Source: Erysipelotrichaceae bacterium NK3D112 (GTDB lineage: Bacteria > Bacillota_I > Bacilli_A > Erysipelotrichales > Erysipelotrichaceae). From it: a stretch of 34,525 nt of DNA. This document shows positions 956 to 20,166 of the stretch, piece after piece. The notes beneath the pieces are model-generated. The model searched no databases and had not been told where the DNA came from. It was given only the letters and a program-made list of their open reading frames with translations. Where the stretch lies: positions 1 through 34,525 of the forward strand of contig JNJQ01000022.1 in the NCBI GenBank assembly GCA_000701725.1, read 5' to 3'. How positions within the stretch are numbered: the first letter of the stretch is position 1; each line of letters begins with the position of its first letter. Made by a program: the position numbers and the translations under genes.

Positions 956-1798
956 TTAATAAGCCAGACCCGGATCGAAGAAGCCGACAAGCACGCCGAC
1001 AAATGCGATCACTACAAGCAGCAGCATTACCTTGAGCGGTGAAAGACGCTTTTTGGACATCAGCCACCAGCAGAAGATAACCACAACTGCTGTCAGGAGT
1101 CCCGGGAATACGCTGTCGAGCTTTTCCTGCAGGACCATGTATGCTTCGCCTGCACTGTTGTACAGCGCAAAGCTTGTTTTAACGGAAACCCATGTTGCAG
1201 ATACTGCACCGATGACGATGCCGCCGAGTGTTGTTACTGCTTCACGGATCGCTTCACCGATGTCGCCGATCAGGAATTCAACAGCCTTTGTACCGAGTTC
1301 ATATCCCTTGTAGTACAGCAGCTTCATTCCGAAGTAAGCGAACAGGTTCCAGACAACGATATAGAAGATTGCGCCGAGCGGTGAACCGCCGGTGGACATG
1401 CCCATGGCAATACCGAGCAGAATCGGGATGACTGTACCGACAACCAGGGAGTCGCCGATACCTGCGATCGGACCCATCAGACCTGCACGCAGACCGTTGA
1501 TGGTTTCATCATCGACATCTTCTGAGCCGTTGGCTCTTGCTTCTTCAAGACCGGCAGTGATACCGACAACGACGGCACCGAACTGAGGCTCAGTGTTGAA
1601 GAATGCTGTATAGGTGTTCATGGCAGCGGCCTTGCGGTCTTCATCGCCTGCGTAGAGTTCCTCCACCAGCGGCAGCATGGAAACCAGGTAGCCGAATGTC
1701 TGCATGTGTTCCTGTGAGAAGCAGGTCAGGTTGCCGTAATACCAGTTATGGAAGGATTTCGACAGCGCCTTTTTGGAAAGTTTCTTTGTTTCAGTCAT
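956..1798 (-). CDS. PTS system mannose/fructose/sorbose family, EIID membrane component
   Basis: A 280-residue EIID protein that, with EIIC, forms the membrane channel of a mannose-type phosphotransferase system. It carries family hallmarks: N-terminal W-Y-G-N-L and a Q-x-x-G-Y-L segment, F-F-N-T-E-P-Q-F-G near residue 75, G-P-I-A-G-I-G-D-S in the middle, and C-terminal transmembrane helices. The start is ATG at 1798 (MTETKK), one nucleotide after the EIIC stop and behind GAGGAGG. An upstream in-frame start at 1822 would overlap EIIC and lacks that spacing. Length is normal for EIID. The transported sugar cannot be told from sequence alone. Confidence 0.93.
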   Translation of the reverse strand: MTETKKLSKKALSKSFHNWYYGNLTCFSQEHMQTFGYLVSMLPLVEELYAGDEDRKAAAMNTYTAFFNTEPQFGAVVVGITAGLEEARANGSEDVDDETINGLRAGLMGPIAGIGDSLVVGTVIPILLGIAMGMSTGGSPLGAIFYIVVWNLFAYFGMKLLYYKGYELGTKAVEFLIGDIGEAIREAVTTLGGIVIGAVSATWVSVKTSFALYNSAGEAYMVLQEKLDSVFPGLLTAVVVIFCWWLMSKKRLSPLKVMLLLVVIAFVGVLVGFFDPGLAY

Positions 1799-1799
1799 C

Positions 1800-2645
1800 T
1801 CAGATTTCCTCCTCGTCATCATCGAAATCCGCAGCGCCTGCAGCGGCCGGCTTTCTCAGCTGGAGCAGCTTCAGTTTATAGATCAGGATTGCAAACATAC
1901 CCGCAACAACAGTGGAGGAAACCAGATTGATTCCCATGGAGGCGGCAAGTGTGAATCCGAACAGATACGGAATGAAGTCTGCTGCGTTTCTGACAATCTG
2001 CTTCAGCAGGATCGCAATACCTACGCAGGGCAGAAGTGAACCGACTGTGAACAGTGTCTTCATGGCAATGCCGTCCATCGGCAGCGCAACCTTGATTGCA
2101 TCTACAACGTTAGCGCCGAGTTTGCACATGATGACAGTAGGAATCAATGAGAAAACGATATGGGAGATCCAGGGCAGAACCATGTCAACCAGGTAAAGCT
2201 TCTTGTAATCTCTCTTTTCGACTGCTGCCCAGCCGATGTGCTGCCACAGAAGGTTCATGGTTGCTGTACCGTAGAACAGGACTGTACCGACTGTACCGAC
2301 CATGGTTCCGAAAGAAGTGGCCAATGCGGCGCCATCTGCGGAGGAAGCTTCAAGGCCATAGCTCTTGAGCGCAACCATTGCCAGAGGAATACCGATATAG
2401 GAAACGGCACGGACATCCGCGGATACTGTTCCGCCGGGTGTGACCAGTGCGATGTAGACAACCTGCATTGCTGTACCTACCATGATACCGGTAGGAATAT
2501 CTCCGAGAATGATACCGCAGACAAGGCCGCCGATCAGAGGTCTTCCCAGTGTGTAGTTACCGATGGAAGTGCCGCCGAGACCGGGCATACTTGACAGTGA
2601 TGCGAATAAGCCAAGCAGAATCGCCTGGAACCAACTGATAGTCAT
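1800..2645 (-). CDS. PTS system mannose/fructose/sorbose family, EIIC membrane component
   Basis: A 281-residue polytopic EIIC. It opens with a hydrophobic helix followed by S-S-M-P-G-L-G-G-T-S-I-G-N-Y-T-L-G-R-P, and continues with G-D-I-P-T-G-I-M-V-G-T-A-M-Q, the conserved EIIC substrate-path region. About eight or nine hydrophobic segments are visible. The protein ends in an acidic tail (D-F-D-D-D-E-E-E-I) whose codons also encode the GAGGAGG ribosome site of EIID, a compact coupling of the two genes. It lies 30 nt downstream of EIIB in the same operon. Confidence 0.93.
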   Translation of the reverse strand: MTISWFQAILLGLFASLSSMPGLGGTSIGNYTLGRPLIGGLVCGIILGDIPTGIMVGTAMQVVYIALVTPGGTVSADVRAVSYIGIPLAMVALKSYGLEASSADGAALATSFGTMVGTVGTVLFYGTATMNLLWQHIGWAAVEKRDYKKLYLVDMVLPWISHIVFSLIPTVIMCKLGANVVDAIKVALPMDGIAMKTLFTVGSLLPCVGIAILLKQIVRNAADFIPYLFGFTLAASMGINLVSSTVVAGMFAILIYKLKLLQLRKPAAAGAADFDDDEEEI

Positions 2646-2675: not shown

Positions 2676-3176
2676 TCAGTCATTGAAGCCGAAGCGGGAA
2701 CGGAACTTTGTCCAGTTGCCGATTGCTTCTTCCTTCAGAAGCGCAAATTCAACTTCATATCCGGCTTTCATGATCTTTTCCAGTGCCTCAGCCTCTTCCT
2801 GGGTGATGGACTGGTTGTTGCCGAGTTTTGTTGCACCGGGTCTGTCATTGCACGGACCGATGATGACGGTTTTGACTTCACTGGGTCTGAAGCCCTGTTC
2901 GACAAGGATCTTTTCCATGTCGAGCGGATTTTTGGTAATCAGGAAGTAATTATCCTTGGACGCAAGAACCTTTGCGCTCTTTTCCTTGAATTCATCGAGT
3001 GACCAGACAAATGTTTTCTTGCCTGAAGCGCTCTTGTATGCAGCTTTAAGAACCGGATTCTTGGCAGCAGCGTTGTTGACGGCAATCAGGCCGTCGCACG
3101 GATACTCAAGAGCCCATCTTGTGCATGTCTGACCGTGAATCATACGGTCGTCAACTCTGACAAATGATACTGACAT
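2676..3176 (-). CDS. PTS system mannose/fructose/sorbose family, EIIB
   Basis: A 166-residue cytoplasmic EIIB that accepts phosphate from EIIA and passes it to the incoming sugar. The N-terminal V-R-V-D-D-R-M-I-H-G-Q motif carries the phosphorylated histidine (His14), as in the sorbose/mannose family, and the chain length is typical. The ATG at 3176 follows AAGGAG. It is a separate polypeptide from EIIA, unlike the fused EIIAB of E. coli ManX. The gap to EIIA is 13 nt, consistent with one transcript. Confidence 0.94.
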   Translation of the reverse strand: MSVSFVRVDDRMIHGQTCTRWALEYPCDGLIAVNNAAAKNPVLKAAYKSASGKKTFVWSLDEFKEKSAKVLASKDNYFLITKNPLDMEKILVEQGFRPSEVKTVIIGPCNDRPGATKLGNNQSITQEEAEALEKIMKAGYEVEFALLKEEAIGNWTKFRSRFGFND

Positions 3177-3189
3177 TATTTTCTCCTTC

Positions 3190-3624
3190 TTAGATGTCGT
3201 CGCTTTCTTCTTCCACTGCGACTGTGAATTCCTGGATCATTTCCTTCGCTTCCGCAACCATTGCGGTTCTGACATGCTCTTTGAAGTCTTCCGCGAAGTC
3301 TTTGGTCAGGATTGTGCTGAGTACAAGCGGCAGGTTCATTCCTCCGACCATGACAGTCCTGTCAAGCAGTCCTTTTTCTGCGATGACATTGGCTGCGGTT
3401 GTGAGCGGCGAACCGCCGACGATATCGGCGAAAAGCGCGATTTCGTCTTCGTCTGTGATGTCTTTGAGAATTTCACGGACATTGTCTGCGAATTCATCGG
3501 CTCCCATTCCGTTTTTCAGGCTTGTTGAAAGAACATCCTCGCGGGATGAGCCGGCAAGCATTTCGATTGCTTTGTGCAGACCGGGTGCGAATTCCCCGTG
3601 GCTGACAAGAAGTACATACCTCAT
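3190..3624 (-). CDS. PTS system mannose/fructose-type EIIA
   Basis: A 144-residue EIIA. The motif V-S-H-G-E-F-A-P-G-L near the N-terminus carries the active-site histidine (His9) phosphorylated by HPr, and A-D-I-V-G-G-S-P is the conserved EIIA-Man loop around residue 68. The C-terminus is acidic (V-E-E-E-S-D-D-I). The ATG at 3624 follows AAAGGAG at good spacing. This is the first gene of the PTS operon. It is separated from the upstream regulatory operon by a strong terminator, and its leader carries the ATGACA-N2-TGTCAT palindrome. Confidence 0.93.
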   Translation of the reverse strand: MRYVLLVSHGEFAPGLHKAIEMLAGSSREDVLSTSLKNGMGADEFADNVREILKDITDEDEIALFADIVGGSPLTTAANVIAEKGLLDRTVMVGGMNLPLVLSTILTKDFAEDFKEHVRTAMVAEAKEMIQEFTVAVEEESDDI

Positions 3625-3706: not shown

Positions 3707-3720
3707 ATGACAGATGTCAT
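3707..3720. promoter_or_regulatory. Palindrome ATGACA-GA-TGTCAT in the PTS promoter region
   Basis: An inverted repeat with 6-bp arms around a 2-bp centre, 83 bp upstream of the EIIA start. TGTCA at 3693-3697 forms a further inverted pair with part of it. The same core occurs upstream of the two-component operon (8117-8130). The size and symmetry suit a NarL/LuxR-type response regulator dimer, so I infer it is the site of the regulator encoded at 5080-5736. No convincing sigma-54 -24/-12 element was found. Confidence 0.55.
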
Positions 3721-3735
3721 GATTTCCGATCAAGG

Positions 3736-3768
3736 AAAAAGCCCGTCCGGGAAACCCGGACAGGCTTT
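3736..3768 (-). terminator. Terminator of the regulatory operon
   Basis: On the minus strand AAAGCCTGTCCGGG pairs with CCCGGACGGGCTTT (arms 3755-3768 and 3738-3751, one mismatch; 3-nt loop), followed by a T tract. It lies directly after the stop at 3779, ending the regulatory operon before the PTS promoter. Confidence 0.88.
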
Positions 3769-3778
3769 GGAATGCATC

Positions 3779-5080
3779 TTATTTCTTGAGGAAGCGGTTG
3801 ATATCGCGCTGGATTCTGAGCAGCTCATCCTCATTGACAGGACCGTCTGCGATCATTTCCGAAACAGCTGTATCCGCCATTGTCATCGCCTGCTCATATT
3901 TGGAGAAATACGGTATGGATACTGCTGATGACATGATTTCATGAATTGATTCTTTATCAAAAATAATACCGCCCGGAATGCTTTCTTTCATAAAAGCGAC
4001 GGTCTCCGGCGACTCTGCCACTGCCTGGAGCGGTGAAATGCCGGAGGAATCGCGCATCATGTCCTGCTGCAGCTCAGCGTCTGAACTCAGCATTTTCGCA
4101 AACTCCCAGGCAGCTTCGCTGTGTCTGGTACGGGCGCTGACTCCCAGCAGCATCGTATGAAGTTCGGAATAATTTCCACCCCACTTGCCTGCCGGCATCG
4201 GAATGCCGTCCCATTCAAAACCCGAATAGACTTTCACACGCCAGGGGTACGGCTGATAGCCCCTGTATTCGGAATAAAGGAACGGACGGAATGCGACATT
4301 GCCGATGTCAAAATCCCTGGCTGTCACCGTATAGCCCTGATTGAGTTCCGTGATCCTGCGGGCAAAGCGGATTGATTCCAGAACGCGGGAATCAAGAAGA
4401 CGGCACTGGCTGCTGTCTTTGGAAAACAGAGAGAATCCGTTGGAATACAAGGCATTGAGCCATGTATATCCATAGACGCCATATGTATGATTCTCTACGT
4501 CTGTCACCTTTTCACAGATGTCATAGAAGTCATCCCATGTCCAGTCGCTTTCAGGGAACGCAATCCCCTTTTCTTCCAGCAGTGTCTTGTTTACAAACAT
4601 GATGGTCGGCACGCTTTCCTGGGGAAGCGCATACTGGATGCCGTTGTATCTGCCTGCTTCAAGGCATGGGGCATAATAGCTGCCGGGATCGAAATGGCTG
4701 TCCGTTCTGATCATATCCGAAAGATCTGCAAGCGCTCCGGCAGAAGCCAGCAGGCTGAAATCCTCCGGCAGAACAAAATACAGATCCGGTTCGGTTCCCT
4801 TGAGAATCTGTTCCGCCAGCCATTCGGAATATTCATCCGAAACGATGCCGCTGACATATTCAACCGTGATGTTGGGATGGAGTTCTTCAAAGCGGGCAGC
4901 CGCCTGATCGAGAATCCGGTAGGAATCGCTGTTGGGTGTGCCCCAGTAGCTGCCGGAATAGACACCGATCTTCAGTACATAGTCCGCTGAGGAATAATTC
5001 AGCCAGACAGAGCCGGAAAGCATAATGAAAAGGGATATGATGAGAATCAGTTTTGAGAGCAGCTTTTCACGCTGGCTCAT
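3779..5080 (-). CDS. Membrane-tethered extracellular solute-binding protein, family 1
   Basis: A 433-residue protein with a hydrophobic helix at about residues 9-26 and an extracellular type 2 binding-protein fold: K-I-G-V-Y-S-G-S-Y-W-G start, A-A-A-R-F-E-E-L-H-P-N-I-T-V-E-Y, G-T-E-P-D-L-Y-F-V, and a family-typical C-terminal helix region (A-A-W-E-F-A-K-M-L). There is no lipobox cysteine, so the first helix probably stays as an anchor. It overlaps the response-regulator stop by one base (TGATG). No ABC permease is nearby. I infer a ligand sensor or accessory protein for the histidine kinase rather than a transporter subunit, although pairing with distant permeases is possible. Confidence 0.82.
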   Translation of the reverse strand: MSQREKLLSKLILIISLFIMLSGSVWLNYSSADYVLKIGVYSGSYWGTPNSDSYRILDQAAARFEELHPNITVEYVSGIVSDEYSEWLAEQILKGTEPDLYFVLPEDFSLLASAGALADLSDMIRTDSHFDPGSYYAPCLEAGRYNGIQYALPQESVPTIMFVNKTLLEEKGIAFPESDWTWDDFYDICEKVTDVENHTYGVYGYTWLNALYSNGFSLFSKDSSQCRLLDSRVLESIRFARRITELNQGYTVTARDFDIGNVAFRPFLYSEYRGYQPYPWRVKVYSGFEWDGIPMPAGKWGGNYSELHTMLLGVSARTRHSEAAWEFAKMLSSDAELQQDMMRDSSGISPLQAVAESPETVAFMKESIPGGIIFDKESIHEIMSSAVSIPYFSKYEQAMTMADTAVSEMIADGPVNEDELLRIQRDINRFLKK

Positions 5081-5736
5081 CAGTCAGCCATTCCTTTCTG
5101 CACCGCCCAGATTGCCAGCTGCGTGCGGTCGCGCAGTTCCAGCTTCATCAGGATGGAGCTGATATAATTGCGCACAGTTCCTTCCGAAAGGTACAGCGTT
5201 GTGCTGATTTCACGGTTGGAAAGTCCGCGGCCGACAGCCCGGATGATTTTGAGTTCACTCTCATTGAGCAGATCTGCCAGCTCATCACTGACCAGGATAA
5301 TATCTTCCCTTCTGGCCATTTCAGAAAACTGGCGGATGACCTTGGTCGCAATTTCCGGATTGATCATCGCTCCGCCGCTTAAGGCAAGATGGATCGCCTC
5401 CATCAGTTCCGCTTTGGAGCAGCCTTTCAGCAGATATCCGGAGGCACCGTATTTCAAGGCGCCGTATACATATTCATCATCATCAAAGGTTGTCAGCACA
5501 ATCACTTTGACATCGGGGTATCTGCTTTTGATGAGTCTTGTTCCTTCAACCCCGTCCTTGCCCGGCATGCGGATGTCCATCAGCACCGCGTCCGGCATTG
5601 TTTCATTGATACTGGCAAGTGCTTCATCCACGCTGGCCACAGCGCCTGTCACTTCTATTTCATCAGATGATTTCATGATGATGGAAAGAGAATCTCTGAA
5701 CAGTTCCTGATCATCAACAATTAAAATTCTGGTCAT
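5080..5736 (-). CDS. NarL/LuxR-family response regulator
   Basis: A 218-residue cytoplasmic regulator. The receiver domain has the acidic pair D8-D9 and the phospho-acceptor D54 in V-L-M-D-I-R-M-P; K-V-I-V-L-T-T-F-D-D follows. The C-terminal LuxR helix-turn-helix reads L-S-N-R-E-I-S-T-T-L-Y-L-S-E-G-T-V-R-N-Y-I. The chosen ATG (5736) sits one nucleotide after the kinase stop and behind CAGGAGGA. A longer frame starting at 5778 would overlap the kinase and lacks that signal. It is the obvious partner of the adjacent kinase. The likely targets are the two ATGACA-N2-TGTCAT palindromes (inference). Confidence 0.93.
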   Translation of the reverse strand: MTRILIVDDQELFRDSLSIIMKSSDEIEVTGAVASVDEALASINETMPDAVLMDIRMPGKDGVEGTRLIKSRYPDVKVIVLTTFDDDEYVYGALKYGASGYLLKGCSKAELMEAIHLALSGGAMINPEIATKVIRQFSEMARREDIILVSDELADLLNESELKIIRAVGRGLSNREISTTLYLSEGTVRNYISSILMKLELRDRTQLAIWAVQKGMAD

Positions 5737-5737
5737 T

Positions 5738-7066
5738 TTATTCCTCCTGCTGTCTTCTTCGAACCGGCAGAGACGCAATCACATAAAATCCCTTTTTGCC
5801 GTCATTCGGGTCATCTGCACGGTTGCCGTAGGTAAGCGATCCGCTGAGCAGATCGAGCCTTTCCTGCATGTGGCGCAGGCCGAATCCTTCCGTGACTGTC
5901 TGACAGCCGCTGCCGTTGTCGCGGATATCCACCGTCAGGATATCATCATGCCGACGCAGACAGATCTGGATCACATCCGCATGGCCATGGCGGACGGCAT
6001 TGGTCATGCATTCCTGGATAATGCGGTAAAGCGTATCCTCTTCATCCACGGCAAACTCCAGCTTTCCGGCAAACTGCTCATAGATGACTGCGACATTTGT
6101 TGTTTTCTGGAATTTGGCAATCATCTCACGCAGTGTGATTTCCAGTCCCTGCTTCTGAAGAGAGTCAGGCCGCAGTGCCTTAATGGAAGCACGCACGTCG
6201 TTAAGGCCGTCACGGGCGCTTCTTGTCACAGCTTCAATCCGCTTTTTTGATTCTTCCGGACTGGCTTCAAAAAGTGCGAGGGATGCCTCAGATCCCATAA
6301 TGATGCCGGTCAGCGTATGGCCAAGGGTATCATGAATCTCCCTTGCCAAGCGGTTGCGCTCACGGATTTCCGCCATTCTTTCCAGCTCAAGAGCGAATTC
6401 ACGAAGCTTACGGTTGGCTTGCCTCAGCTGCTCATTCAGACTGACAATCCGCTCATTCTCCGCCTTCTGGGATGTAAACAGCATAACCATGTAGTAGACA
6501 AACATGATGATATTGGCGGAAACAAGAATGGTTTCCATCAGTGAGATGAATGTTCTTACCGGCTGGCTGTAATAGCTCAGCCAGGATGCAAATGCGATTC
6601 TGTCCGCCGCCAGCGGAATGATGTCATATCTTCCGATGACAAAGACAGAAACCAGAACGATCATCAGGATTACCCTTCTGCCGTTGTTCTCCATATAATT
6701 GACCAGATCTGCCAGCACAACCAGAGCAATGCCGCTGTAATAGAAATTCAGACCTTCGATGATTCCGATACAGAGAATGATCTCCGCAATGATAAAGCAG
6801 AAACGTACAACCGGTGAATCATGGCGGATCACGTTCTTGGTCATACTGACACAGATCAGCGCCGCAAACAGGAGTATTGTCTGCACCGGCATCCGCCAGG
6901 GATGATTGGGGATGACACCTGCTTCCGAAAGAAATTCATATGCCTGGAAATGGCGGGCAATCCGGAAAGCGGTGGCGTTTGAAACCAAGCTGTAGAAAAC
7001 AACAGTCACAAAGTTCAGGTAATACATATGAATGACTGTCAGATTCAGATTGCGGTCATTGTTCAT
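5738..7066 (-). CDS. Membrane sensor histidine kinase, HisKA_3 (NarL-type partner)
   Basis: A 442-residue kinase. About six hydrophobic helices fill residues 15-197. A coiled-coil linker (~199-238) leads to the dimerisation helix with phospho-accepting His245 in R-E-I-H-D-T-L-G-H. The ATPase domain has its N-box at 351-361 (Q-E-C-M-T-N-A-V-R-H-G), D-N-G-S-G at 383-387 and G-F-G-L-R-H-M at 394-400. The ATG at 7066 overlaps the stop of the upstream binding-protein gene (TGATG), the same coupling used at the other junction. A GTG at 7075 is less likely. It has no large extracellular sensor domain, so signals may arrive through the tethered binding proteins encoded on both sides. Confidence 0.93.
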   Translation of the reverse strand: MNNDRNLNLTVIHMYYLNFVTVVFYSLVSNATAFRIARHFQAYEFLSEAGVIPNHPWRMPVQTILLFAALICVSMTKNVIRHDSPVVRFCFIIAEIILCIGIIEGLNFYYSGIALVVLADLVNYMENNGRRVILMIVLVSVFVIGRYDIIPLAADRIAFASWLSYYSQPVRTFISLMETILVSANIIMFVYYMVMLFTSQKAENERIVSLNEQLRQANRKLREFALELERMAEIRERNRLAREIHDTLGHTLTGIIMGSEASLALFEASPEESKKRIEAVTRSARDGLNDVRASIKALRPDSLQKQGLEITLREMIAKFQKTTNVAVIYEQFAGKLEFAVDEEDTLYRIIQECMTNAVRHGHADVIQICLRRHDDILTVDIRDNGSGCQTVTEGFGLRHMQERLDLLSGSLTYGNRADDPNDGKKGFYVIASLPVRRRQQEE

Positions 7067-8049
7067 CACTGCCACCCCGAAATGCCGAATCGATAGACAT
7101 TTTCTTTCGTGACCAGTTCAACCGGAATGATGATTTCCTTTTCCACCTCATTTCCGTTCAGTATTTCATAGGCAGCTCTGGCTGCTTCTGAAGCAAGTCT
7201 GCCGGGAAACTGTGCACAGGTGGCGGTCATCATCTGTTCCGCGACCATGGTCTTGGCTTCCGGTGAGCCGTCAACGCTGTAAACAAGAATCTCTCCGGAG
7301 AGGCCGGCACCTTCAATGGCCGCCATGGCGCCGAATGCGCTGGGATCATTGAGTGCCATCACCACATCCGCCTCGGGATGTTCCCTGAGAAGCTCTGCCA
7401 TAACCGGCATGGCATTTTCAATCTGGCCGTCCGATTCCCCGGATCCGACAATCCTGAATTCAGGATGCGAAGCCAGCGTATCGGTAAAGCCTTTGATCCT
7501 CTGCCGTCCGGAAATCGCCGTGATATGCTCCAGCAGAAGGATATCGGCACCCGTGCGGTTTGCCAGCAGATGCTCGGCACAGAGCACACCGGCATGGTAA
7601 TTGTTTGAAACAACGGAACAGGTCACAAGATCTGAATTCTTTACTTCCGTATCAATTGCGATCACGGGAACACCCGCCTCGTTGGCATAGCGGATCCCCT
7701 CTTCCACCTGATCCCAGTCGACACAGGTGATGAAAATCACTTCAGCTCCTGATTCGATGAGCTCTTTGATTTCCTCGTTCTGTCTCTGCTGGTTCATCGT
7801 GCCGTCCCTGGTCAGAAGCACATCGCCGTTTTCTTCCAGGAAAGCTCTGATCTGGCTGTCCACAACCTTGTAATAGGGATTGTTCATCGTCATGTAGGTT
7901 GCGCCGAAAACATGCTGCTTTTCCACCTGGGCACGTGAAATATCATCGCTGCTGAGAAACAGCACATTAACTGTTGCAAGCAGAATCAGCAGCGGAATCA
8001 ATATCATGCAGACTCTGCCTGTCTTTTTGTTTAAATCTGTAAGCTTCAT
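7066..8049 (-). CDS. Membrane-tethered periplasmic-binding-protein-like sensor (sugar-binding, type 1 fold)
   Basis: A 327-residue protein with an N-terminal hydrophobic segment (about 12-32) followed by a Peripl_BP_4-type domain related to ribose/galactose-binding proteins. Visible family features are F-G-A-T-Y-M-T-M-N-N-P-Y-Y, Q-N-E-E-I-K-E-L-I-E-S-G-A-E, V-P-V-I-A-I-D-T-E, and N-D-P-S-A-F-G-A near residue 240. It lacks a lipobox, so it is probably a signal-anchored extracellular receptor. It is the first gene of the operon ending at 3779 and is translationally coupled to the kinase. Receptor-plus-kinase pairs are known, for example XylFII-LytS in clostridia. The sugar is not predictable. 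Confidence 0.85.
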   Translation of the reverse strand: MKLTDLNKKTGRVCMILIPLLILLATVNVLFLSSDDISRAQVEKQHVFGATYMTMNNPYYKVVDSQIRAFLEENGDVLLTRDGTMNQQRQNEEIKELIESGAEVIFITCVDWDQVEEGIRYANEAGVPVIAIDTEVKNSDLVTCSVVSNNYHAGVLCAEHLLANRTGADILLLEHITAISGRQRIKGFTDTLASHPEFRIVGSGESDGQIENAMPVMAELLREHPEADVVMALNDPSAFGAMAAIEGAGLSGEILVYSVDGSPEAKTMVAEQMMTATCAQFPGRLASEAARAAYEILNGNEVEKEIIIPVELVTKENVYRFGISGWQ

Positions 8050-8135
8050 AATGTATCAATATTTTAATATGCTGAATCATGCAGGCACAAAAGTTTAAAT
8101 TCCGCCGGCAAAAAATATGACATTTGTCATATTTT
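8050..8135 (-). promoter_or_regulatory. Promoter and palindromic operator of the sensor operon
   Basis: The core ATGACA-TT-TGTCAT (8117-8130) is extended by AAAAT and ATTTT on its two sides, giving a 24-bp inverted repeat (8112-8135) that is symmetric except at the central two bases. About 30 bp downstream on the minus strand lie a plausible -35 (TTGTGC, 8085-8090) and an A/T-rich -10 (TATTAAAAT), then the ATG at 8049. The operator position upstream of -35 fits activation by a response regulator, here autoregulation (inference). Confidence 0.55.
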
Positions 8136-8324: not shown

Positions 8325-8464
8325 CCTTTCTCGCATCTCGCAGCGTACGATTCTATAACGCATTCGGGGATTTTAATGCAGTGAGTGGTTTCGTCATAAT
8401 AAAGATTCATGGGGGAATACTTTCATTCAAAAATACAAATGACTGCCTAAAGAACATCGATTGC

Positions 8465-8497
8465 AAAAAAAGACCCATCCTGTACATGAATGAGTCT
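8465..8497 (-). terminator. Terminator of the mgl operon
   Basis: On the minus strand AGACTCA (8491-8497) pairs imperfectly with TGGGTCT (8471-8477), followed by a run of seven T. It starts 28 nt after the mglC stop at 8525. Confidence 0.7.
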
Positions 8498-8524
8498 TCT
8501 GATGTGTATATACGGATCAGCGGA

Positions 8525-10192
8525 TTACTTCTTCTGAACGTATTTCAAAGAGTCGAGTGTAACAGCTGCGAGGATAATGATACCTTCAAATATGAACTGA
8601 AGGTTAGCATCGACACCCAGAATTGTCAGACAGTATGTCAGACCTGTGAAGATCAGAACACCGACAACAACACCGGAGATCTTACCAATACCACCGGTAA
8701 AGGAGACGCCGCCGACAACACAAGCGGCAATGGCATCCATATCCCAGCCCTGACCATAAGCAGCAGAACCGGAGCCTACCATTCGCATACATTCAAGCCA
8801 TGCACCGAAGCCATACAGAACACCAGCCATCATGAATGCACATAATGTGACTTTGAAAACATTGATGCCGGATACGGAAGCAGCTTCGGAGTTTCCGCCT
8901 ACTGCATACAGATATTTGCCGAACTTTGTTTTGTTCCACACAAACCAGATAATGGCAACTGCCGCAATCGCCCACAGGATGATTGTCGGGAATTTACCGA
9001 TTCTCGGGATGAACATAGCCGGAATTTCATTGTCGATTGCACCGAAGGATACACCTTTTGTAGCATATGTAACTGTACCGAAGATAATCAGCATGTTGGA
9101 CATTGTACATACGAACGGGTGGATCTTGAACCGTGCTGTAAAGAAACCGGCAATCGTTGTAAAGCACACACATAAGATAATGCATAACAGCAGAGCAAGC
9201 AGTGCTTTGCCCAGCATCGGATACGAGCTGAAATCAAAGATGTGGCCGAATACAGTACCGGTATTGATACCCTTATGCATGATGATTGTAGCTGTACACA
9301 TGCCCATACCTACCATACGTCCGATGGAAAGATCGGTACCGGTAAGAAGGATCAGTCCTGCTACACCAAGTGCAAGGAACATACGCGGAGAAGCCTGCTG
9401 TAAAATATTCAGGATATTTGTCATTGTAAACAGGTTTGTACCTTTTACAACCGGTGCGATAATACCGAGGAAGATAAATACTGCACTGATGACAATGTAC
9501 AGGCCATTGTTCAGGAAGAACTGTTTCCGATTGAATGTATACCTCCGGTTCTCGCGCTTCTGAGCCTGATTCTGGGCGAATGTGAACCTGGATCTTCTGA
9601 GCAGGTCGATCATATGGTATTCTTCCGTGAATGCCGTATGGAGCCGGTCCTTGCATGCCTGAAGTTCCTTGTCATAATTCATCTTTGCATCAAACAGCCT
9701 GTTTTTATTTACATAATTCTCGTCTTTTAATTCCTGGCCGGAAAGACCTGCGGAATTCTGTTTGTGAAGAGCATTGATCTCAGCAACTCTTGCATTGTAT
9801 TTGGCAAGAGCAGCCTCTTTTTCAGCCGCGACACTGGCTGCAACCTTATCGTAGTACTCACTTTTGAAGTGATCTTTCAGATAAGCTTCGCCTTCCGCAA
9901 TCAGAGCGGTGATTTCCGACTTGTTTGCCGCTTCAACTTTTTTCGCCTCTGCAATTGCTGCATTTGCTTCGCTGATAATATTGCTTCTTTCGCCGCTTGT
10001 TAAAGCCTTGTTTTCTTTTGCAAGCTGAATTCTGTTTTTCAGTGTAACGATCTTTTCTTCACCGTCTAAACGCAAAGCATCGATCTTTTTCTGTATTTCA
10101 GCTAAATGCTGTGTGATCGGTTCAAGGAGCGCAGCTTCCTGCTCAGCAGTCAGGATCCTTGGATCCGATGGTTTATTATTATTCTGACTCAT
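8525..10192 (-). CDS. mglC: Galactose/methylgalactoside ABC permease MglC with ~220-residue N-terminal extension
   Basis: A 555-residue protein. The C-terminal ~335 residues align well with E. coli MglC (G-T-D-L-S-I-G-R-M-V-G, W-N-K-T-K-F-G-K, A-I-A-A-C-V-V-G-G-V-S-F-T-G-G, and an end of A-V-T-L-D-S-L-K-Y-V-Q-K-K) and would form the transmembrane channel. The first ~222 residues are extra: polar, rich in Ala, Glu and Lys, and predicted by eye to be helical or coiled-coil, with a basic stretch (R-R-S-R ... K-R-E-N-R-R) just before the first membrane helix. No internal stop or better start separates the two parts. The gene follows mglA after 16 nt. The extension's role is unknown. Confidence 0.9.
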   Translation of the reverse strand: MSQNNNKPSDPRILTAEQEAALLEPITQHLAEIQKKIDALRLDGEEKIVTLKNRIQLAKENKALTSGERSNIISEANAAIAEAKKVEAANKSEITALIAEGEAYLKDHFKSEYYDKVAASVAAEKEAALAKYNARVAEINALHKQNSAGLSGQELKDENYVNKNRLFDAKMNYDKELQACKDRLHTAFTEEYHMIDLLRRSRFTFAQNQAQKRENRRYTFNRKQFFLNNGLYIVISAVFIFLGIIAPVVKGTNLFTMTNILNILQQASPRMFLALGVAGLILLTGTDLSIGRMVGMGMCTATIIMHKGINTGTVFGHIFDFSSYPMLGKALLALLLCIILCVCFTTIAGFFTARFKIHPFVCTMSNMLIIFGTVTYATKGVSFGAIDNEIPAMFIPRIGKFPTIILWAIAAVAIIWFVWNKTKFGKYLYAVGGNSEAASVSGINVFKVTLCAFMMAGVLYGFGAWLECMRMVGSGSAAYGQGWDMDAIAACVVGGVSFTGGIGKISGVVVGVLIFTGLTYCLTILGVDANLQFIFEGIIILAAVTLDSLKYVQKK

Positions 10193-10208
10193 CTTCTATC
10201 TCCTTAGG

Positions 10209-11714
10209 TTACATATACTTCGCGCTTAATCTCAGCAGTTCTTCCTGGTTTGTCTCCTTCGTATTGACGATTCCGGATAAGTGTCCGGCAGACATGACAC
10301 CAATACGATTTGTGATACCAAGAATCTCAGGCATTTCAGATGATACGACAATAATCGTCTTTCCCTGTTTTGCCATATTGATGATCAATTCATAGATTTC
10401 ATATTTGGCACCGACGTCAATACCTCTGGTCGGTTCATCCATCATGAATACAGCCGGATCACGTTCAAGCCATTTGCCGAAGATTACCTTCTGCTGGTTA
10501 CCGCCTGAAAGACTGGAAATACTGTCCTCCGGACCCATGCATTTCGTATGCATAATCGCGATTTCCTTCAGGGTTGCTCTGTGCATTTTGTCATCCGAGA
10601 GAGCAATTCCATTCTTATAGTGATTCAGATTCGCGATACAGGTATTAAATGTCAGATTGCCTTTCTGGAATATACCGTTTGCTTTACGTTCCTCTGTGAT
10701 CAGTGCAAAGCCATGATCCATGGCGTCTTTTGAACTGGCGAAGTTCATCAGCTTGCCTTCATAGTAGACACGGCCGGCAGCTCTGGTACGGATACCGAAG
10801 ATTGTTTCCAGCAGCTCCGTACGTCCGGCACCAACCAGTCCGTAGAGGCCGAAGATCTCTCCCCTCTTTACTTCAAAGGAAATATCCTGCAGATACGGCT
10901 CATATTTTGTGGAAATATTCTGAATTGAGAGAACCGGTTCGCCCGGCACATTGTCTACCGGCGGGAAACGGTTATCCAGTGAACGACCTACCATGGCTGC
11001 GATCAGTTCATCCATATTTGTATCTTTTGTGCTCTTTGTCAGAACCAGCTGGCCGTCACGAAGAACAGACACTTCATCACAGATTTCAAATACTTCATCC
11101 ATCTTATGAGAAATATAAATCATGGAAATACCCTGACTTGTCAGATTTCTCATAATCCGGAACAATTTCTTTACTTCCGGCTCTGTCAGTGATGATGTTG
11201 GCTCATCAAGAACAATAATTTTCGAATTATAGGAAATTGCTTTTGCAATTTCACACATCTGTCTTGCAGAGACAGACATATGTCGCATAGGCTGCGTCAG
11301 ATTGACTGTCATATCCAACCTTCTGAACAAAGCAGCCGCTTCATTCTTCATTCTGTTTTCATCAATGATTCCGGAATTGGTCGGATAGCGTCCAAGGAAT
11401 AAATTATCCACAACACTGCGATCCAGACACTGGTTAAGTTCCTGGTGTACCATTGCCACACCGTTTTCCAAAGCTTCTTTCGGTCCTGAGAAACTGATCG
11501 GATGGCCATCAAGTTCTATTTCCCCTTCGTCCTTAGTGTAAATACCGAAGAGACATTTCATCATGGTTGATTTACCGGCACCGTTTTCACCCATCAGGCC
11601 CATAACGGTACCGCGTTTTACATCCATGTTAATATGATCCAGTACTCTGTTACGCCCGAAAGACTTGGACATACCACGGATCGATAAAATTATATCGTCT
11701 TTCTTTTCGGTCAT
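10209..11714 (-). CDS. mglA: Galactose/methylgalactoside ABC transporter ATP-binding protein MglA
   Basis: A 501-residue double ATPase that drives MglC. The first domain has Walker A G-E-N-G-A-G-K-S-T (42-50) and Walker B V-L-D-E-P-T-S-S-L. Its signature is degenerate (V-S-A-R-Q-M-C), as usual for this subfamily. The second domain has the typical altered Walker A G-L-V-G-A-G-R-T-E, the signature S-G-G-N-Q-Q-K and Walker B M-M-D-E-P-T-R-G-I-D-V-G. Length and architecture match MglA/RbsA/XylG proteins. The assignment to galactose rests on the companion MglC and MglB. It lies 128 nt downstream of mglB with a hairpin between, and 16 nt upstream of mglC. Confidence 0.93.
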   Translation of the reverse strand: MTEKKDDIILSIRGMSKSFGRNRVLDHINMDVKRGTVMGLMGENGAGKSTMMKCLFGIYTKDEGEIELDGHPISFSGPKEALENGVAMVHQELNQCLDRSVVDNLFLGRYPTNSGIIDENRMKNEAAALFRRLDMTVNLTQPMRHMSVSARQMCEIAKAISYNSKIIVLDEPTSSLTEPEVKKLFRIMRNLTSQGISMIYISHKMDEVFEICDEVSVLRDGQLVLTKSTKDTNMDELIAAMVGRSLDNRFPPVDNVPGEPVLSIQNISTKYEPYLQDISFEVKRGEIFGLYGLVGAGRTELLETIFGIRTRAAGRVYYEGKLMNFASSKDAMDHGFALITEERKANGIFQKGNLTFNTCIANLNHYKNGIALSDDKMHRATLKEIAIMHTKCMGPEDSISSLSGGNQQKVIFGKWLERDPAVFMMDEPTRGIDVGAKYEIYELIINMAKQGKTIIVVSSEMPEILGITNRIGVMSAGHLSGIVNTKETNQEELLRLSAKYM

Positions 11715-11772
11715 TACTCGTACCCCTTTTACTCATTGCATAATGATTTTCAAAAATCGATGATAATCAGCA

Positions 11773-11796
11773 GGGGGATAACTTACGCTATCCCCC
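11773..11796 (-). promoter_or_regulatory. Intercistronic hairpin between mglB and mglA
   Basis: GGGGGATA (11773-11780) and TATCCCCC (11789-11796) form a perfect 8-bp stem with an 8-nt loop, without a following T tract. It lies 47 nt after the mglB stop. In binding-protein transporters such a stem commonly protects the 3' end of the binding-protein mRNA and gives it higher expression than the ATPase and permease. That role here is inferred. Confidence 0.65.
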
Positions 11797-11842
11797 TTTG
11801 ATAACAGTTATTTCAGATCAGAAATTATATATTTATTCTTAA

Positions 11843-13123
11843 TTACTGATTCAGAATGGATGTATATGTAGCTGCGTTATCAGTCTTGATCATGTTGATA
11901 GCGAAGCCATCATATTCGCTCGGGTTGGTGAGCTTGTTGGAAACAGAAGACTCACTCTGTCCGTCGCCGCCTACCATCTGATCAACACCAGCGAGGTTCA
12001 GTGTCTTCGCATAGTTGTTCAGCTGAGGGTTATATGTGGAACTCAGGAAGTTATCGGATGCATTATATGTGTCGATCCAGATCTTCTTTGTCGGATGAGC
12101 TGCTTCATCAAGCTGGTTGCTGATCGGAGCATAAATTGCTGTAGCATCCAGGAAATCCTGATAGTTGTCAGCTGTAACTGCAAGGTTCAGAGCATAGAAT
12201 GAACGGTCTGCTTCAGAATACTTATAGTCTGTATCTGTCAGAACGTTGCCTGCATCATCAGGAGTAGCGATACCTGTCATGATGTCAACGCCATCGAGGA
12301 TGTTTCTCATAACTCTGAGTGTCAGGTAAGCCTGAACGTCAGCGTGCTGGGAAATTGTTCCGCCGAAGCCGTCAGCGATAGCTGCAACAGCGTCAGAGTT
12401 TGCATCATAACCGAATGTCGGAATACCAGCTTCCTTGGACCACTTGTTGAATACAGCCATGCCCATGCCATCGTTGTTGGAAACAACTACATCAATCTGA
12501 TCACCGAAGTCACCTACCCATGCAGAGACAGTGTCACCAGCTGTAGCAGCATCCCATGTAGCACCTGCAGCACTCTTCATTTCATGAGAAGCAAGTTCAC
12601 GGACTTTCAGACCAGCAAGTTCGCCGTCCTGTACGTGTGTGGAAGAACCGTCTTTGTTGACTTCGATCGGTGCGGAGTCGATTGCGCCGTCAACTTCAAC
12701 AGCTGTACCGAGAGCCTTACGGGCGCCTCTTGTACGTGCGATGGAGTCATTGTGTCCGATGTCACCGATGCAGAGAACATAACCGATGATACCGTCACCG
12801 TTACGGTCGATTGTGTCTTTGTGATCTTCGATATACTTTGCGATCATTTCGCCCTGGAGTTCAGCACCCTGGTTAGCATCGAATCCAACATAATATGTGT
12901 TTTCGTTGAATGTTAATGCGTCCATGTCGAGTGCGCCTGTGGAGCTGTTGGACGGCTGACGGTTATACCAGATCAGCGGTTTTTCGTTGTTGGCAACTGT
13001 TGCTGAAGATTCGCCTTCGGAGCTTTCGCCTTCAGAGCTTCCGCCCTGAGCGCCACTGTCTGAGCATGCTGCAAGAGACAATGCCATTACGCCGGCGAGT
13101 GCAAGTGAAAAAATCTTTTTCAT
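11843..13123 (-). CDS. mglB: Galactose/glucose-binding lipoprotein MglB, circularly permuted
   Basis: A 426-residue lipoprotein: signal peptide with lipobox L-A-A-C (Cys20), then a Gly/Ser/Glu-rich linker to about residue 45. The mature domain begins where classical MglB is about 90 residues in (K-P-L-I-W-Y-N-R-Q-P-S matches V-V-F-F-N-K-E-P-S) and runs to the classical C-terminus (~residue 326). The segment equivalent to the classical N-terminus follows at 347-424 (I-D-T-Y-N-A-S-D-N-F ... F-A-I-N-M). Sugar-binding equivalents are kept: D357, F359, N410, H124, D126, R130, W190, N217 and D240. The calcium loop D-R-N-G-D-G (106-111) is kept too. Start: ATG at 13123 after GGGAGG; an upstream in-frame start at 13153 would precede the ribosome site. 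Confidence 0.92.
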   Translation of the reverse strand: MKKIFSLALAGVMALSLAACSDSGAQGGSSEGESSEGESSATVANNEKPLIWYNRQPSNSSTGALDMDALTFNENTYYVGFDANQGAELQGEMIAKYIEDHKDTIDRNGDGIIGYVLCIGDIGHNDSIARTRGARKALGTAVEVDGAIDSAPIEVNKDGSSTHVQDGELAGLKVRELASHEMKSAAGATWDAATAGDTVSAWVGDFGDQIDVVVSNNDGMGMAVFNKWSKEAGIPTFGYDANSDAVAAIADGFGGTISQHADVQAYLTLRVMRNILDGVDIMTGIATPDDAGNVLTDTDYKYSEADRSFYALNLAVTADNYQDFLDATAIYAPISNQLDEAAHPTKKIWIDTYNASDNFLSSTYNPQLNNYAKTLNLAGVDQMVGGDGQSESSVSNKLTNPSEYDGFAINMIKTDNAATYTSILNQ

Positions 13124-16557: not shown

Positions 16558-19500
16558 TTAATTGGATGCTCTCTTGCGTCTTTCGTAAATCAGGATCAGC
16601 GAGAGGATTGCAGAGACCGTCAGAACACCGGCATAAATTCCGGCATTTGATGAATCAGCGGTATTTGCGGAAGATGTGTTCTGATTGTTTCCGGACTGAT
16701 CGGAAGGAGCAGGCTTAGGCGCAGGAGTTGGTTCCGGTGACGGAGTCGGATCGGCAGGAGTGTCTTCATCCGGATTATTAAGTTCTTCAACATCCCAATA
16801 CTTGTAATACCATTCAGGCAGGGTCTTCAGAGGTCTGTATTTCTCTGCCGGCTGATCTTCGTCCACAACCTCTTCACCTTCAAGAACTCTCACGCCCAGA
16901 TTCGGGCATTTGTCACGTAGAGGAGCACCGAGTTTTCCGAAATCAAACGTTGCTGTGCTTCCGAGTTTCAGACCTGAGAAGCTTTCTTCACCGTAAACTT
17001 CAAGCGTTTCACTGTTATAGAATACAACTTTGCCGCTTCTTGGTTTTATGCCGTATCCTTTGATCTCAACCGTATATGAATCATTGTCCTTACTGTATCT
17101 GTAATCATAGTCGGTATCACTGATCACAGTGATGCCCGCTGATAAATCAACAGGTATTTCCGTCTGGATTTCTTCTTTCGGATATTTCGATGAGCTGCCG
17201 ATGAGGGCAATTGTATACTCAGGCTCATCAGCCATTGTATCCGGAATCGTCACTGTAATGACATCCGTATGACCGGGCAGCAGTTTTTCAAGATTCTGTC
17301 TTCCGAGCGAAATATATTCAGATGATACTGTATTCTGCACATTCTGAACTCTGAGGGCAGAGCTTTCAGACTTGATGACTTTGCGGGCATACACATCCAC
17401 ATAATCAATCGGCACAAGACCGTTGTTTCTGAATTCAACGCTGATTTCAGCATGTGTGGTTCCGTCCAGTTCACGTGCATTGTCAAGTTCCGCATTTGTC
17501 AGGGATACATGCGTGTTTTCAGCGCCGACCTGGATGTAGAGGTTGCTGACACCGTCAACGAATTCTCCGTTTGCAGCGGAGTATTCCTGGGTTGAGTATA
17601 CGATCACAGGCTCATCATCACCGACAAACACACCGTCGAAGTAATTGACATTCGTATTTTCCGCAACATCCGTTATATCCGTTCTTCCGTATTCCGTCGA
17701 AGCGCTGCTGATCCGGGCATAGCCGGACAGATTCTGTGATGTGCCTTCGGATTTCAGATAACCGATCACATTTGAGCCATTCAGATCACCGATCAGCTGA
17801 TAGGTTGCCTCAGGCATTCCCTCTTTATCCGACTGCGGGAAAATCTGATCCGCATTGTCATTATTGGTACCATTGGCGGTATATAAAGCCCCGTCCCGCA
17901 TGAATGTCAGGGTTACAGTTCCGTCAGTATTTGCAAATGCGCCGTTCCATGCGTTTGAGAATGTTCTCTTGATTCCTCCATCAGAAATCACATTGACTGT
18001 TTTTGAACCGCTTGCTTCAACCGAGTACGCGGCAGCGGGCATGACTGCGCCGCTTTCGCTGAAGTAATACTGGCCGCCGTCAAATCTTATGATCCGTCCG
18101 GCAACGTGATCAACCACTTCGGGTTCCCAGTAACCACCCTCAGGATTATATTCGAACACCAGGATGTCATGCTCACTGTTCTCAGACAGTCCGGCAGGGT
18201 CTTCCTCAGGATTTGTGTATGCGAACACATGCGGATAAAGGGCTTCGCTCTTCGCATATCCGACAGCCGAACCGCCGAGAAGATATTCATTGCTTTTGGA
18301 AACGATTTCGAAGTTTGTCCAGCGGTTGAACTCAACATCGTATTTTGCAAAGCACAGCTGCATATCAGAAACAGCATCCCTGAGTGTAAGATTTGCAGAT
18401 TGGGCATCCGTTCCCCTTAACCAGGTCGCATACAGCGAGTCATATTCCGGTCCGCGGGTCAGACGGGGGCTGAAATCTCCGCCGGTATCTTCGATATGAT
18501 CCTCATCTATATCCAGAACGACCGGTTTCGGTTCGGTAATATACTTAGTGTCATGATGATAGATTGAATACAGCAGTTCCCCCTTCTTTCCGGGTTCTCT
18601 GCTGTCATTGTTTCCAACCAGCAGAATCAGAGCTGTATCATGTTCGCCTTCATAGAGATTCTTGATCTGGATTCCGTTTTCAGGATGAATATTATCTGCC
18701 AGCTTTGTGGAGAAGCTTCTGTCTCCGAGCATATGACCGTCAGATCCGGCATAGAGTTTCGCATGATCCTCATCAGGCTGATCAAGATTTTGCGTATGCC
18801 ATATGGTTTCGCCGGATGTTTCATTGACTTCATATATCTGATTGGCGTATCCGCTCGCGACCAGATTTTCAATTTCATTATTCATCCTCTCCTGCACATT
18901 CACCGTATCAGGCAGTGTCAGGGTTTGTTTTCCGTCTTTTATTTTGCCCTCTTTGAAATCAAGGCGGCCTTCAGTGAATTTGAATTTGAAAATCGTTCTT
19001 CCGAATAATTTTGCCTTCAATCCGACCTCGCCGTCCAGATAGCAGTCTTTTGCCTGCTGTACCGGCATAAACTGGAAATTCGCCATAAATGTGGCAGATC
19101 CGTAAATACCGGCCGATAACAGACAGCCGATACCGATACCGCCATACAATTCAAGTCCTGAAAGGAATCCAAGCTGAAGATCCACCTCAAACGGTGTCTT
19201 TCCTTCCGGCTCAACAGTAAACTGAACAAGTCCCTGAACACCCAGGGTGATCGTGATACTGTATGTGAATACGGAATACTGGCCTGCCTGTTCAATTCCC
19301 GAGCCGAGATAGAACTGCAGCTGACCGCCCATCTTCCGCGGATTATCATCATAAGAAACCGCATATCCGCCGACGGACCAGACCAGACCAAGGCTGCCGC
19401 GTTCGTGTTTTGATTTTTCATCTTCCCATGATTCATATACCTTGCCGTGGGCGAGTGATGTAAACTCACCTCTGGAAGCTTTCTCCCAGAAGCCCTGCTC

Positions 19501-20166
19501 ACTGGAATTCCATCCGATACCGAGAACACTGTGCCCGTCAGGGAAATGCTTGTATGTGCAAGGCATCGGGATCACATTGATTTCAAAACCCGCTTTCGGC
19601 ATAAAACTGCTCATATCAATGGCTATGCCTTCCTTGGGACCGAATGACATATCCACACTTTCAAATAACTGCCTTGCCTCATTCTGCTTGACAATGATTC
19701 CAAGCATCGTATCAACGATGACTTCATTCCAGTCCCATACACGCACCCTGATACCGCAATCTGCAGGCAGATCGTATGAATTTCCTGCATATGTATCGCA
19801 TACTCCGCCGCCCATTGCATCCCCGAGCCGGGTTTCCTGGCCATCCTGTGTTATGGAAGAAACCTCGATAACCATTGCTCGAGGTGCGAGCCAGTCATCA
19901 TATTCAAAATGCAGGTTCATCGGAGCGTCAGTTCCGTTATCGACCGTAAAAATATCGTTCCAGACATCTTTCTCAACACCGCCGTATGACAGAGTAACGG
20001 ACTTTATATGCTCTGATCCTTTACCATTATGAACTGTATCATTTTCTGTATGATCCTCTGCAGATACGGGTAGTGAGGCGGAAATGAGGAGTGAAAACAC
20101 GAACAGTGTTTTTAACAAAAAACCGAATACCTGATTGAATCTCAATGTAGCGCTGTGTTTTTTCAT
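16558..20166 (-). CDS. Large secreted surface protein (1202 aa) with anchor-like C-terminus
   Basis: A 1202-residue protein with an N-terminal signal peptide ending near V-S-A-E (residues 1-36). A long beta-rich ectodomain of unknown function follows. Parts near residues 910-1070 look like Ig/CARDB-type beta-sandwiches (H-A-E-I-S-V-E-F-R-N-N-G). A Pro-rich spacer lies at about 1135-1155 (T-P-S-P-E-P-T-P-A-P). The tail has N-T-A-D-S at 1168-1172, a hydrophobic helix (~1177-1194) and E-R-R-K-R. This is sorting-signal layout, but with N-T-A-D-S where LPxTG would be. The ATG at 20166 follows AAAGGA. Few cysteines and no recognisable catalytic motif were seen. It is transcribed alone. Confidence 0.8.
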   Translation of the reverse strand: MKKHSATLRFNQVFGFLLKTLFVFSLLISASLPVSAEDHTENDTVHNGKGSEHIKSVTLSYGGVEKDVWNDIFTVDNGTDAPMNLHFEYDDWLAPRAMVIEVSSITQDGQETRLGDAMGGGVCDTYAGNSYDLPADCGIRVRVWDWNEVIVDTMLGIIVKQNEARQLFESVDMSFGPKEGIAIDMSSFMPKAGFEINVIPMPCTYKHFPDGHSVLGIGWNSSEQGFWEKASRGEFTSLAHGKVYESWEDEKSKHERGSLGLVWSVGGYAVSYDDNPRKMGGQLQFYLGSGIEQAGQYSVFTYSITITLGVQGLVQFTVEPEGKTPFEVDLQLGFLSGLELYGGIGIGCLLSAGIYGSATFMANFQFMPVQQAKDCYLDGEVGLKAKLFGRTIFKFKFTEGRLDFKEGKIKDGKQTLTLPDTVNVQERMNNEIENLVASGYANQIYEVNETSGETIWHTQNLDQPDEDHAKLYAGSDGHMLGDRSFSTKLADNIHPENGIQIKNLYEGEHDTALILLVGNNDSREPGKKGELLYSIYHHDTKYITEPKPVVLDIDEDHIEDTGGDFSPRLTRGPEYDSLYATWLRGTDAQSANLTLRDAVSDMQLCFAKYDVEFNRWTNFEIVSKSNEYLLGGSAVGYAKSEALYPHVFAYTNPEEDPAGLSENSEHDILVFEYNPEGGYWEPEVVDHVAGRIIRFDGGQYYFSESGAVMPAAAYSVEASGSKTVNVISDGGIKRTFSNAWNGAFANTDGTVTLTFMRDGALYTANGTNNDNADQIFPQSDKEGMPEATYQLIGDLNGSNVIGYLKSEGTSQNLSGYARISSASTEYGRTDITDVAENTNVNYFDGVFVGDDEPVIVYSTQEYSAANGEFVDGVSNLYIQVGAENTHVSLTNAELDNARELDGTTHAEISVEFRNNGLVPIDYVDVYARKVIKSESSALRVQNVQNTVSSEYISLGRQNLEKLLPGHTDVITVTIPDTMADEPEYTIALIGSSSKYPKEEIQTEIPVDLSAGITVISDTDYDYRYSKDNDSYTVEIKGYGIKPRSGKVVFYNSETLEVYGEESFSGLKLGSTATFDFGKLGAPLRDKCPNLGVRVLEGEEVVDEDQPAEKYRPLKTLPEWYYKYWDVEELNNPDEDTPADPTPSPEPTPAPKPAPSDQSGNNQNTSSANTADSSNAGIYAGVLTVSAILSLILIYERRKRASN

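Follow-up and report, generated by a model that had tools for sequence, protein, structure and literature searches.

Since the 2000s, a four-part design for sugar sensing has been on record in dental bacteria, and other systems combine tethered sugar-binding proteins with kinases in different ways. In XylFII-LytS of Clostridium, one tethered type-1 receptor acts with a LytS-type kinase and the output is an ATP-binding cassette (ABC) importer, while in AraP-AraS-AraT of Geobacillus a type-1 protein, again the single receptor, lies beside a two-component pair that likewise drives an ABC importer. In the BT1754-type hybrid sensors of Bacteroides, the type-1 fold serves as sensor domain with fructose as ligand, the receptor being fused to the kinase in a single hybrid protein and a second receptor being absent. 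Here, we analyze a receptor operon of a gut bacterium, Erysipelotrichaceae bacterium NK3D112 (assembly GCA_000701725.1), in which two tethered sugar-binding proteins flank a histidine kinase and a response regulator, next to a mannose-family phosphotransferase system (PTS). The operon is located on contig JNJQ01000022.1 (C21), analyzed over its whole length of 34,525 nucleotides (nt) and hereafter called the window; it is one contig of a 95-contig assembly of 3.15 Mb.

The dental system is LevQRST of Streptococcus mutans, whose genes follow the order levT-levS-levR-levQ and then levDEFG, and which has been shown genetically to activate fruA and levDEFG upon fructose or mannose (PMC3043104). 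In the available part of that report, LevQ and LevT are membrane-anchored sugar-binding proteins, LevQ being required for activity and specificity and LevT modulating, while LevS has up to 5 helices, with mutations in its last two membrane segments changing signalling (PMC3043104). The same part places no ABC transporter near levTSRQ and reports similar operons in S. gordonii, S. sanguinis, two lactobacilli, C. acetobutylicum and Dorea longicatena (PMC3043104). From the available parts of two further papers, LevS is an HPK7 kinase and LevR a regulator of the NarL class (PMC3353171), and fruA needs a dyad at -72 to -59 (PMC9241797). A two-receptor design feeding a PTS is already known, also outside streptococci. 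The initial annotation of the window, which had found such a version unfamiliar, needs correction in this respect since LevQRST, as described in these sources, is one with the same order and the same protein classes (PMC3043104; PMC3353171). In the open-licence literature, the S. mutans paper was the sole match for this combination, and its available part does not mention Erysipelotrichaceae (PMC3043104).

Organization of the Receptor Operon and Comparison With Known Systems

The receptor operon is encoded on the minus strand. Its first gene codes for a tethered type-1, RbsB-like receptor (7066..8049; 327 residues; Peripla_BP_4, E 4e-45 in Pfam), and is followed by genes for a sensor histidine kinase (5738..7075 from a GTG start, or 7066-5738 from an ATG; HisKA_3, E 4e-20, and HATPase_c), a NarL-type response regulator (5080..5736; Response_reg and a GerE helix-turn-helix, with NarL-type NCBIfam hits) and a tethered type-2 receptor of the solute-binding protein (SBP) class (3779..5080; SBP_bac_1, E 6e-28). 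With the ATG start of the kinase, the first junction reads TGATG (7068-7064); a 1-nt gap separates the kinase stop (5740-5738) from the regulator ATG at 5736, and the regulator/SBP junction is again TGATG (5082-5078). All four open reading frames (ORFs) and their junctions could be read back from the sequence, in agreement with the order and tight junctions first described. GTG 7075 is the probable start of the kinase, since its relatives mostly begin with MA[IV]M and, in 35 of the 43 ordered loci, overlap the first gene by 10 nt. A hydrophobicity scan of the kinase revealed about five or six hydrophobic segments within residues 6-203 and no large external domain, as the initial annotation had stated.

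Downstream on the same strand, a terminator-like hairpin (3733..3768; -25.2 kcal/mol, z -6.2) closes the operon and precedes the PTS genes (3624-956), which encode IIA (3190..3624; EIIA-man), IIB of the mannose/sorbose family (2676..3176; PTSIIB_sorb), IIC of the same family (1800..2645) and the mannose-family IID (956..1822).

We estimate at about 0.82 the probability that this operon encodes a LevQRST-type four-component sugar sensor driving the mannose-family PTS through a shared palindrome, with fructose or mannose as the most likely signal. In the mechanism that we propose, two extracellular sugar-binding proteins, each on one N-terminal membrane helix, would report sugar occupancy, which would be passed, presumably by direct contact, through the membrane region of a kinase almost devoid of an external domain. 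The kinase would phosphorylate the NarL-type regulator, which is predicted to bind the palindrome ATGACA-N2-TGTCAT and to act as an activator, rather than a repressor, of the downstream PTS and probably of its own receptor operon. In relatives, it may also control a secreted fructanase.

The resemblance to LevQRST extends to each component. The window kinase has a HisKA_3 domain, which we take to correspond to HPK7, and shares with LevS a membrane region of five or six hydrophobic segments with little external sequence; the regulator, as LevR, is of NarL type; and two N-terminally anchored sugar-binding proteins flank the kinase/regulator pair. The four-gene order followed by a mannose-family PTS is that of levT-levS-levR-levQ followed by levDEFG, so that by position the SBP_bac_1 protein would be the counterpart of LevQ, the RbsB-like protein of LevT, the kinase of LevS and the regulator of LevR. 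The predicted targets would also be alike, i.e., a PTS and, among the relatives of the window, a secreted GH32 fructanase, with a dyad as putative operator here as at fruA. Unlike the S. mutans system, the host belongs to the Erysipelotrichaceae, and the window has no fructanase target and an adjoining mgl importer. With XylFII-LytS, the window system has in common a tethered type-1 sugar-binding protein acting via a kinase, but it combines two receptors, a HisKA_3 kinase and a PTS, and is hence not of the XylFII type; the absence of an mgl-type importer (judged by mglC) from all 55 related loci also counts against such a membership. AraP-AraS-AraT likewise has a type-1 sugar-binding protein beside a two-component pair, whereas the window has two receptors.

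Conservation Among Relatives

The conservation of the locus was examined in 48 related loci from 48 genomes other than that of the window, some of them closely related, and in seven named contigs (55 in total). Genes were assigned with a simple ORF-calling script followed by blastp comparison with the window proteins, and those that are divergent or frameshifted may escape this procedure (L065, L083). The nearest named contigs come from uncultured Erysipelotrichaceae genomes, with kinase identities of 67-97%. At E <= 1e-40, the kinase was found in 49 of the 148 genomes of the window's order but in only three of the 19 listed under the same genus, and its distribution is hence patchy.

The order RbsB-like receptor, kinase, regulator, SBP recurs in 43 of the 48 related loci. 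Among the five exceptions, there are four in which the contig stops next to the missing gene, and in the fifth (L065) the set is broken or unrecognised. As the order recurs so widely and most exceptions are cut by contig ends, the four-gene arrangement is no chance association. A mannose-family PTS is present within the locus in 38 of 48 cases, mostly downstream and in four loci upstream (L040, L041, L043, L047); half of the ten loci without one hold less than 1.2 kb of downstream sequence. The survey of related genomes proposed in the initial annotation, for this gene order beside mannose-type PTS genes, has in this way given a positive answer.

Several other candidates for a Lev-type system were discarded. 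Three lower-scoring kinase matches from beyond the order (G161, G187, G207) have no adjoining receptors, the L. salivarius kinase is neighboured by an ABC transporter pair with receptors absent, and a Monoglobus match turned out to be an rbs-type importer. Plasmid searches for a named Lev relative found none. On plasmid pNP243 of Butyrivibrio fibrisolvens, a gene for 1070 residues annotated as fructose PTS IIC (L145:5739-8951) ends in a type-1 sugar-binding domain related to the RbsB-like receptor, and is possibly a receptor-transporter fusion.

A Predicted Operator Shared by the Sensor, the PTS and Fructanases

In the window, the palindrome ATGACA-N2-TGTCAT precedes both the PTS and the receptor operon, with the core TGACA-N2-TGTCA located at 3708..3719 (84 nt from the IIA start) and at 8118..8129 (69 nt from the first receptor gene), no strand being assigned to these sites. 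Throughout the 884.5 kb of the loci, 70 exact palindromes have the 2-nt spacer, compared with 0-3 for each of the spacers 0, 1 and 3-7, and 60 of these 70 copies lie ahead of either IIA or the first receptor gene. When spacers of 0-4 nt are allowed, 38 of 42 loci have the palindrome ahead of IIA. Upstream regions were also scored with a weight matrix built from the same IIA sites that it then rates; scores of at least 15 bits came from 38/42 IIA upstreams and 19/50 upstreams of the first receptor gene. None of the remaining six genes of the set gave 12 bits or more in any of its 41-55 upstreams, and of 249 control ORFs, 10 scored as sites.

The palindrome is also associated with fructan degradation. 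Seven loci encode a large GH32 protein (L044, L046, L050, L057, L060, L069, L079), identified by Pfam in L079, L046 and L060 and by blastp in the other four (57-72% identity to the catalytic region of L079), and all seven proteins start, as read by eye, with a signal-peptide-like stretch. The palindrome lies 89-108 nt upstream in each of the seven loci, being exact in L057, L060 and L069 and with one mismatch in the other four; it is absent from a weaker eighth GH32-like match (L053, 466 residues).

These patterns bear on whether the palindrome could be the site of another regulator, the kinase/regulator pair controlling unrelated genes. We regard this as improbable. Indeed, although the sites of NarL-type regulators are not readable from the protein, so that the pairing of regulator and palindrome is a prediction, the palindrome tracks the upstreams of IIA, the first receptor gene and the fructanase and not those of the other genes of the set or, with few exceptions, of the control ORFs. 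In S. mutans, fruA likewise depends on a dyad, according to the available part of that work (PMC9241797). From its genomic context, the sensor very probably switches on the neighbouring PTS, and the proposal of a receptor complex with a PTS output is supported in silico by the palindrome at IIA and by the conserved neighbourhood.

A scan of the entire window genome found the palindrome at nine places and a reversed control pattern at two. The seven outside the window were rejected as further targets: four are inside ORFs and the others lie beside other regulators, two of the seven together adjoining a TetR-like regulator and one being located where a Crp-like regulator ORF begins, next to a MATE-like gene (by eye). 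In the same genome, a second mannose-family IIA-like gene (by eye; L086:4711-5136, contig C1) holds an exact TGACA-N2-TGTCA in its coding sequence. Among the related loci, L045, L060, L056 and others carry degenerate half-site copies and a CcpA-like cre 30-80 nt past the first palindrome that precedes IIA (by eye), these elements lying between the palindrome and a TAGAAT-type -10; such an arrangement suggests tandem activator sites plus catabolite repression before IIA.

The Two Tethered Receptors

Both receptors of the window have a single N-terminal hydrophobic helix and no lipobox. AlphaFold2 models place a lone N-terminal helix at residues 2-40 of the RbsB-like protein (predicted local distance difference test, pLDDT, 92) and at residues 3-30 of the SBP_bac_1 protein (pLDDT 88), and together with the sequence scan they bear out the membrane anchoring without lipobox that had been proposed for the two proteins. 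Across the families, lipobox-like motifs were found in 0/29 RbsB-like and 2/33 SBP sequences (L040, L045). Elsewhere in the window genome, the SBP profile has two further matches and the RbsB-like profile one, all of them weak and partial.

The nearest solved structures to the RbsB-like protein are ribose-binding proteins, with AraP (6sw4) and the fructose-binding domain of BT1754 (2x7x) also among its structural matches. Residues N57, D133, R184, N234, D260 and Q280 align with N13, D89, R141, N190, D215 and Q235 of E. coli RbsB, which we take to be its sugar-pocket residues. Over 29 sequences, five of the six are invariant and N57 is nearly so, while the position of the ribose-contacting R90 of RbsB is altered to T134. 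As the pocket is kept except at this position, the RbsB-like protein is probably a working receptor with changed specificity. For the SBP_bac_1 protein, the nearest solved structures are Lmo0181, which binds cycloalternan, and AbnE, which binds an arabino-oligosaccharide. Since the nearest solved relatives of the SBP_bac_1 protein bind oligosaccharides and those of the RbsB-like protein single sugars, one might speculate that they read two states of one food, with the SBP_bac_1 protein sensing fructo-oligosaccharides and the RbsB-like protein free fructose or mannose, although we hold this division to be rather doubtful. If true, the single kinase would act as a coincidence or ratio detector, weighing polymer against monomer before the PTS and, in relatives, the fructanase are switched on.

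The Likely Signal

Fructose (from fructans) or mannose appears the most likely signal by analogy, since a fructanase and a PTS together make up the published LevQRST regulon. Several observations weigh against this assignment or against the LevQRST-type reading as a whole. The likeness which would make the window system a LevQRST-type member comes from gene order, domain class and regulon, and not from alignment. When 395 genomes of the class and 392 of the phylum were sampled, full-length kinase matches came from inside the window's order only. The PTS is missing from five loci (L038, L039, L048, L057, L059) that hold at least 7.4 kb of downstream sequence, and only 18 of 50 loci carry the palindrome ahead of the first receptor gene (spacers of 0-4 nt). 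The window genome has four GH32-family matches; in the stretches fetched around them, no exact palindrome was found, and a lone one-mismatch site lies more than 1 kb off. As no GH32 gene of this genome is linked to a palindrome, the predicted regulon in the species comprises the receptor operon and the PTS only. For every named sugar subfamily, the PTS subunits fall well short of the curated score cut-off, and the transported sugar is hence not set by annotation. Finally, a galactose/glucose-type importer adjoins the receptor operon.

It is possible, if clearly less probable than a fructose or mannose signal, that the same architecture serves another sugar in this species, for example galactose or one from host glycans, and that only fructanase-bearing relatives use fructose as the signal. 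The lack of a fructanase beside the palindrome in the window genome, the nature of the neighbouring importer and the proximity of the SBP to binders of cycloalternan and arabino-oligosaccharide all fit with such a specificity. Against it, the window shares 64-79% identity in IIB, IIC and IID with the PTS-bearing fructanase loci (L044, L046, L050, L060, L069, L079), which suggests that both PTS carry the same sugar.

The Neighbouring mglBAC Importer

The adjoining importer, mglB-mglA-mglC of galactose/glucose type (8525..13123, minus strand), is outside the conserved unit and ends 475 nt upstream of the receptor operon on the same strand, with a terminator-like hairpin (8463..8502, minus strand; -14.7 kcal/mol, z -4.6) 3' of mglC. 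Because of this putative terminator, the absence of a predicted operator before mgl (no exact palindrome was found near mglB) and the absence of mglC from the 55 related loci, mglBAC appears to be a separate unit. The view of the initial annotation that the system has no permease and that its output is not an ABC importer can be retained for the conserved unit, but in the window an ABC importer does adjoin the operon, lying directly upstream (13123-8525). That the two receptors belong to mglBAC, either supplementing its binding protein or sensing galactose for it, would be in line with this position and shared strand. We nevertheless rejected it as very unlikely on account of the hairpin, the missing operator and the lack of conservation; moreover, mgl possesses its own lipoprotein binding protein, whereas the receptors carry membrane helices and not lipoprotein signals.

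The mglB product (11843-13123, minus strand) is circularly permuted, with a match to Peripla_BP_7 on the C-terminal side and one to the second half of Peripla_BP_4 on the N-terminal side, and is collinear with Treponema Tp0684 (5jx2, E 2e-86). Such a permutation, present in Gram-positive bacteria, has already been described, as found in the available part of that paper (PMC4990184). In the MglC-like permease (8525-10192, minus strand), the membrane domain is preceded by an N-terminal extension of about 220 residues that, by eye, are mostly charged and coiled-coil-like. Further along the window, a 1202-residue ORF (16558-20166, minus strand) has no Pfam match at E <= 0.001.

Perspectives

While the four-component design itself has been described before, its breadth in the window's order, the predicted operator and the fructanase link are added here. 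With the kinase found in 49/148 genomes, LevQRST-type sensing would extend to about one third of the sampled genomes of this order, and with the sharp operator prediction the regulon can be put to the test in gut bacteria. The difference in fold between the two receptors could moreover address their division of labour, a question left open in the available part of the S. mutans work.

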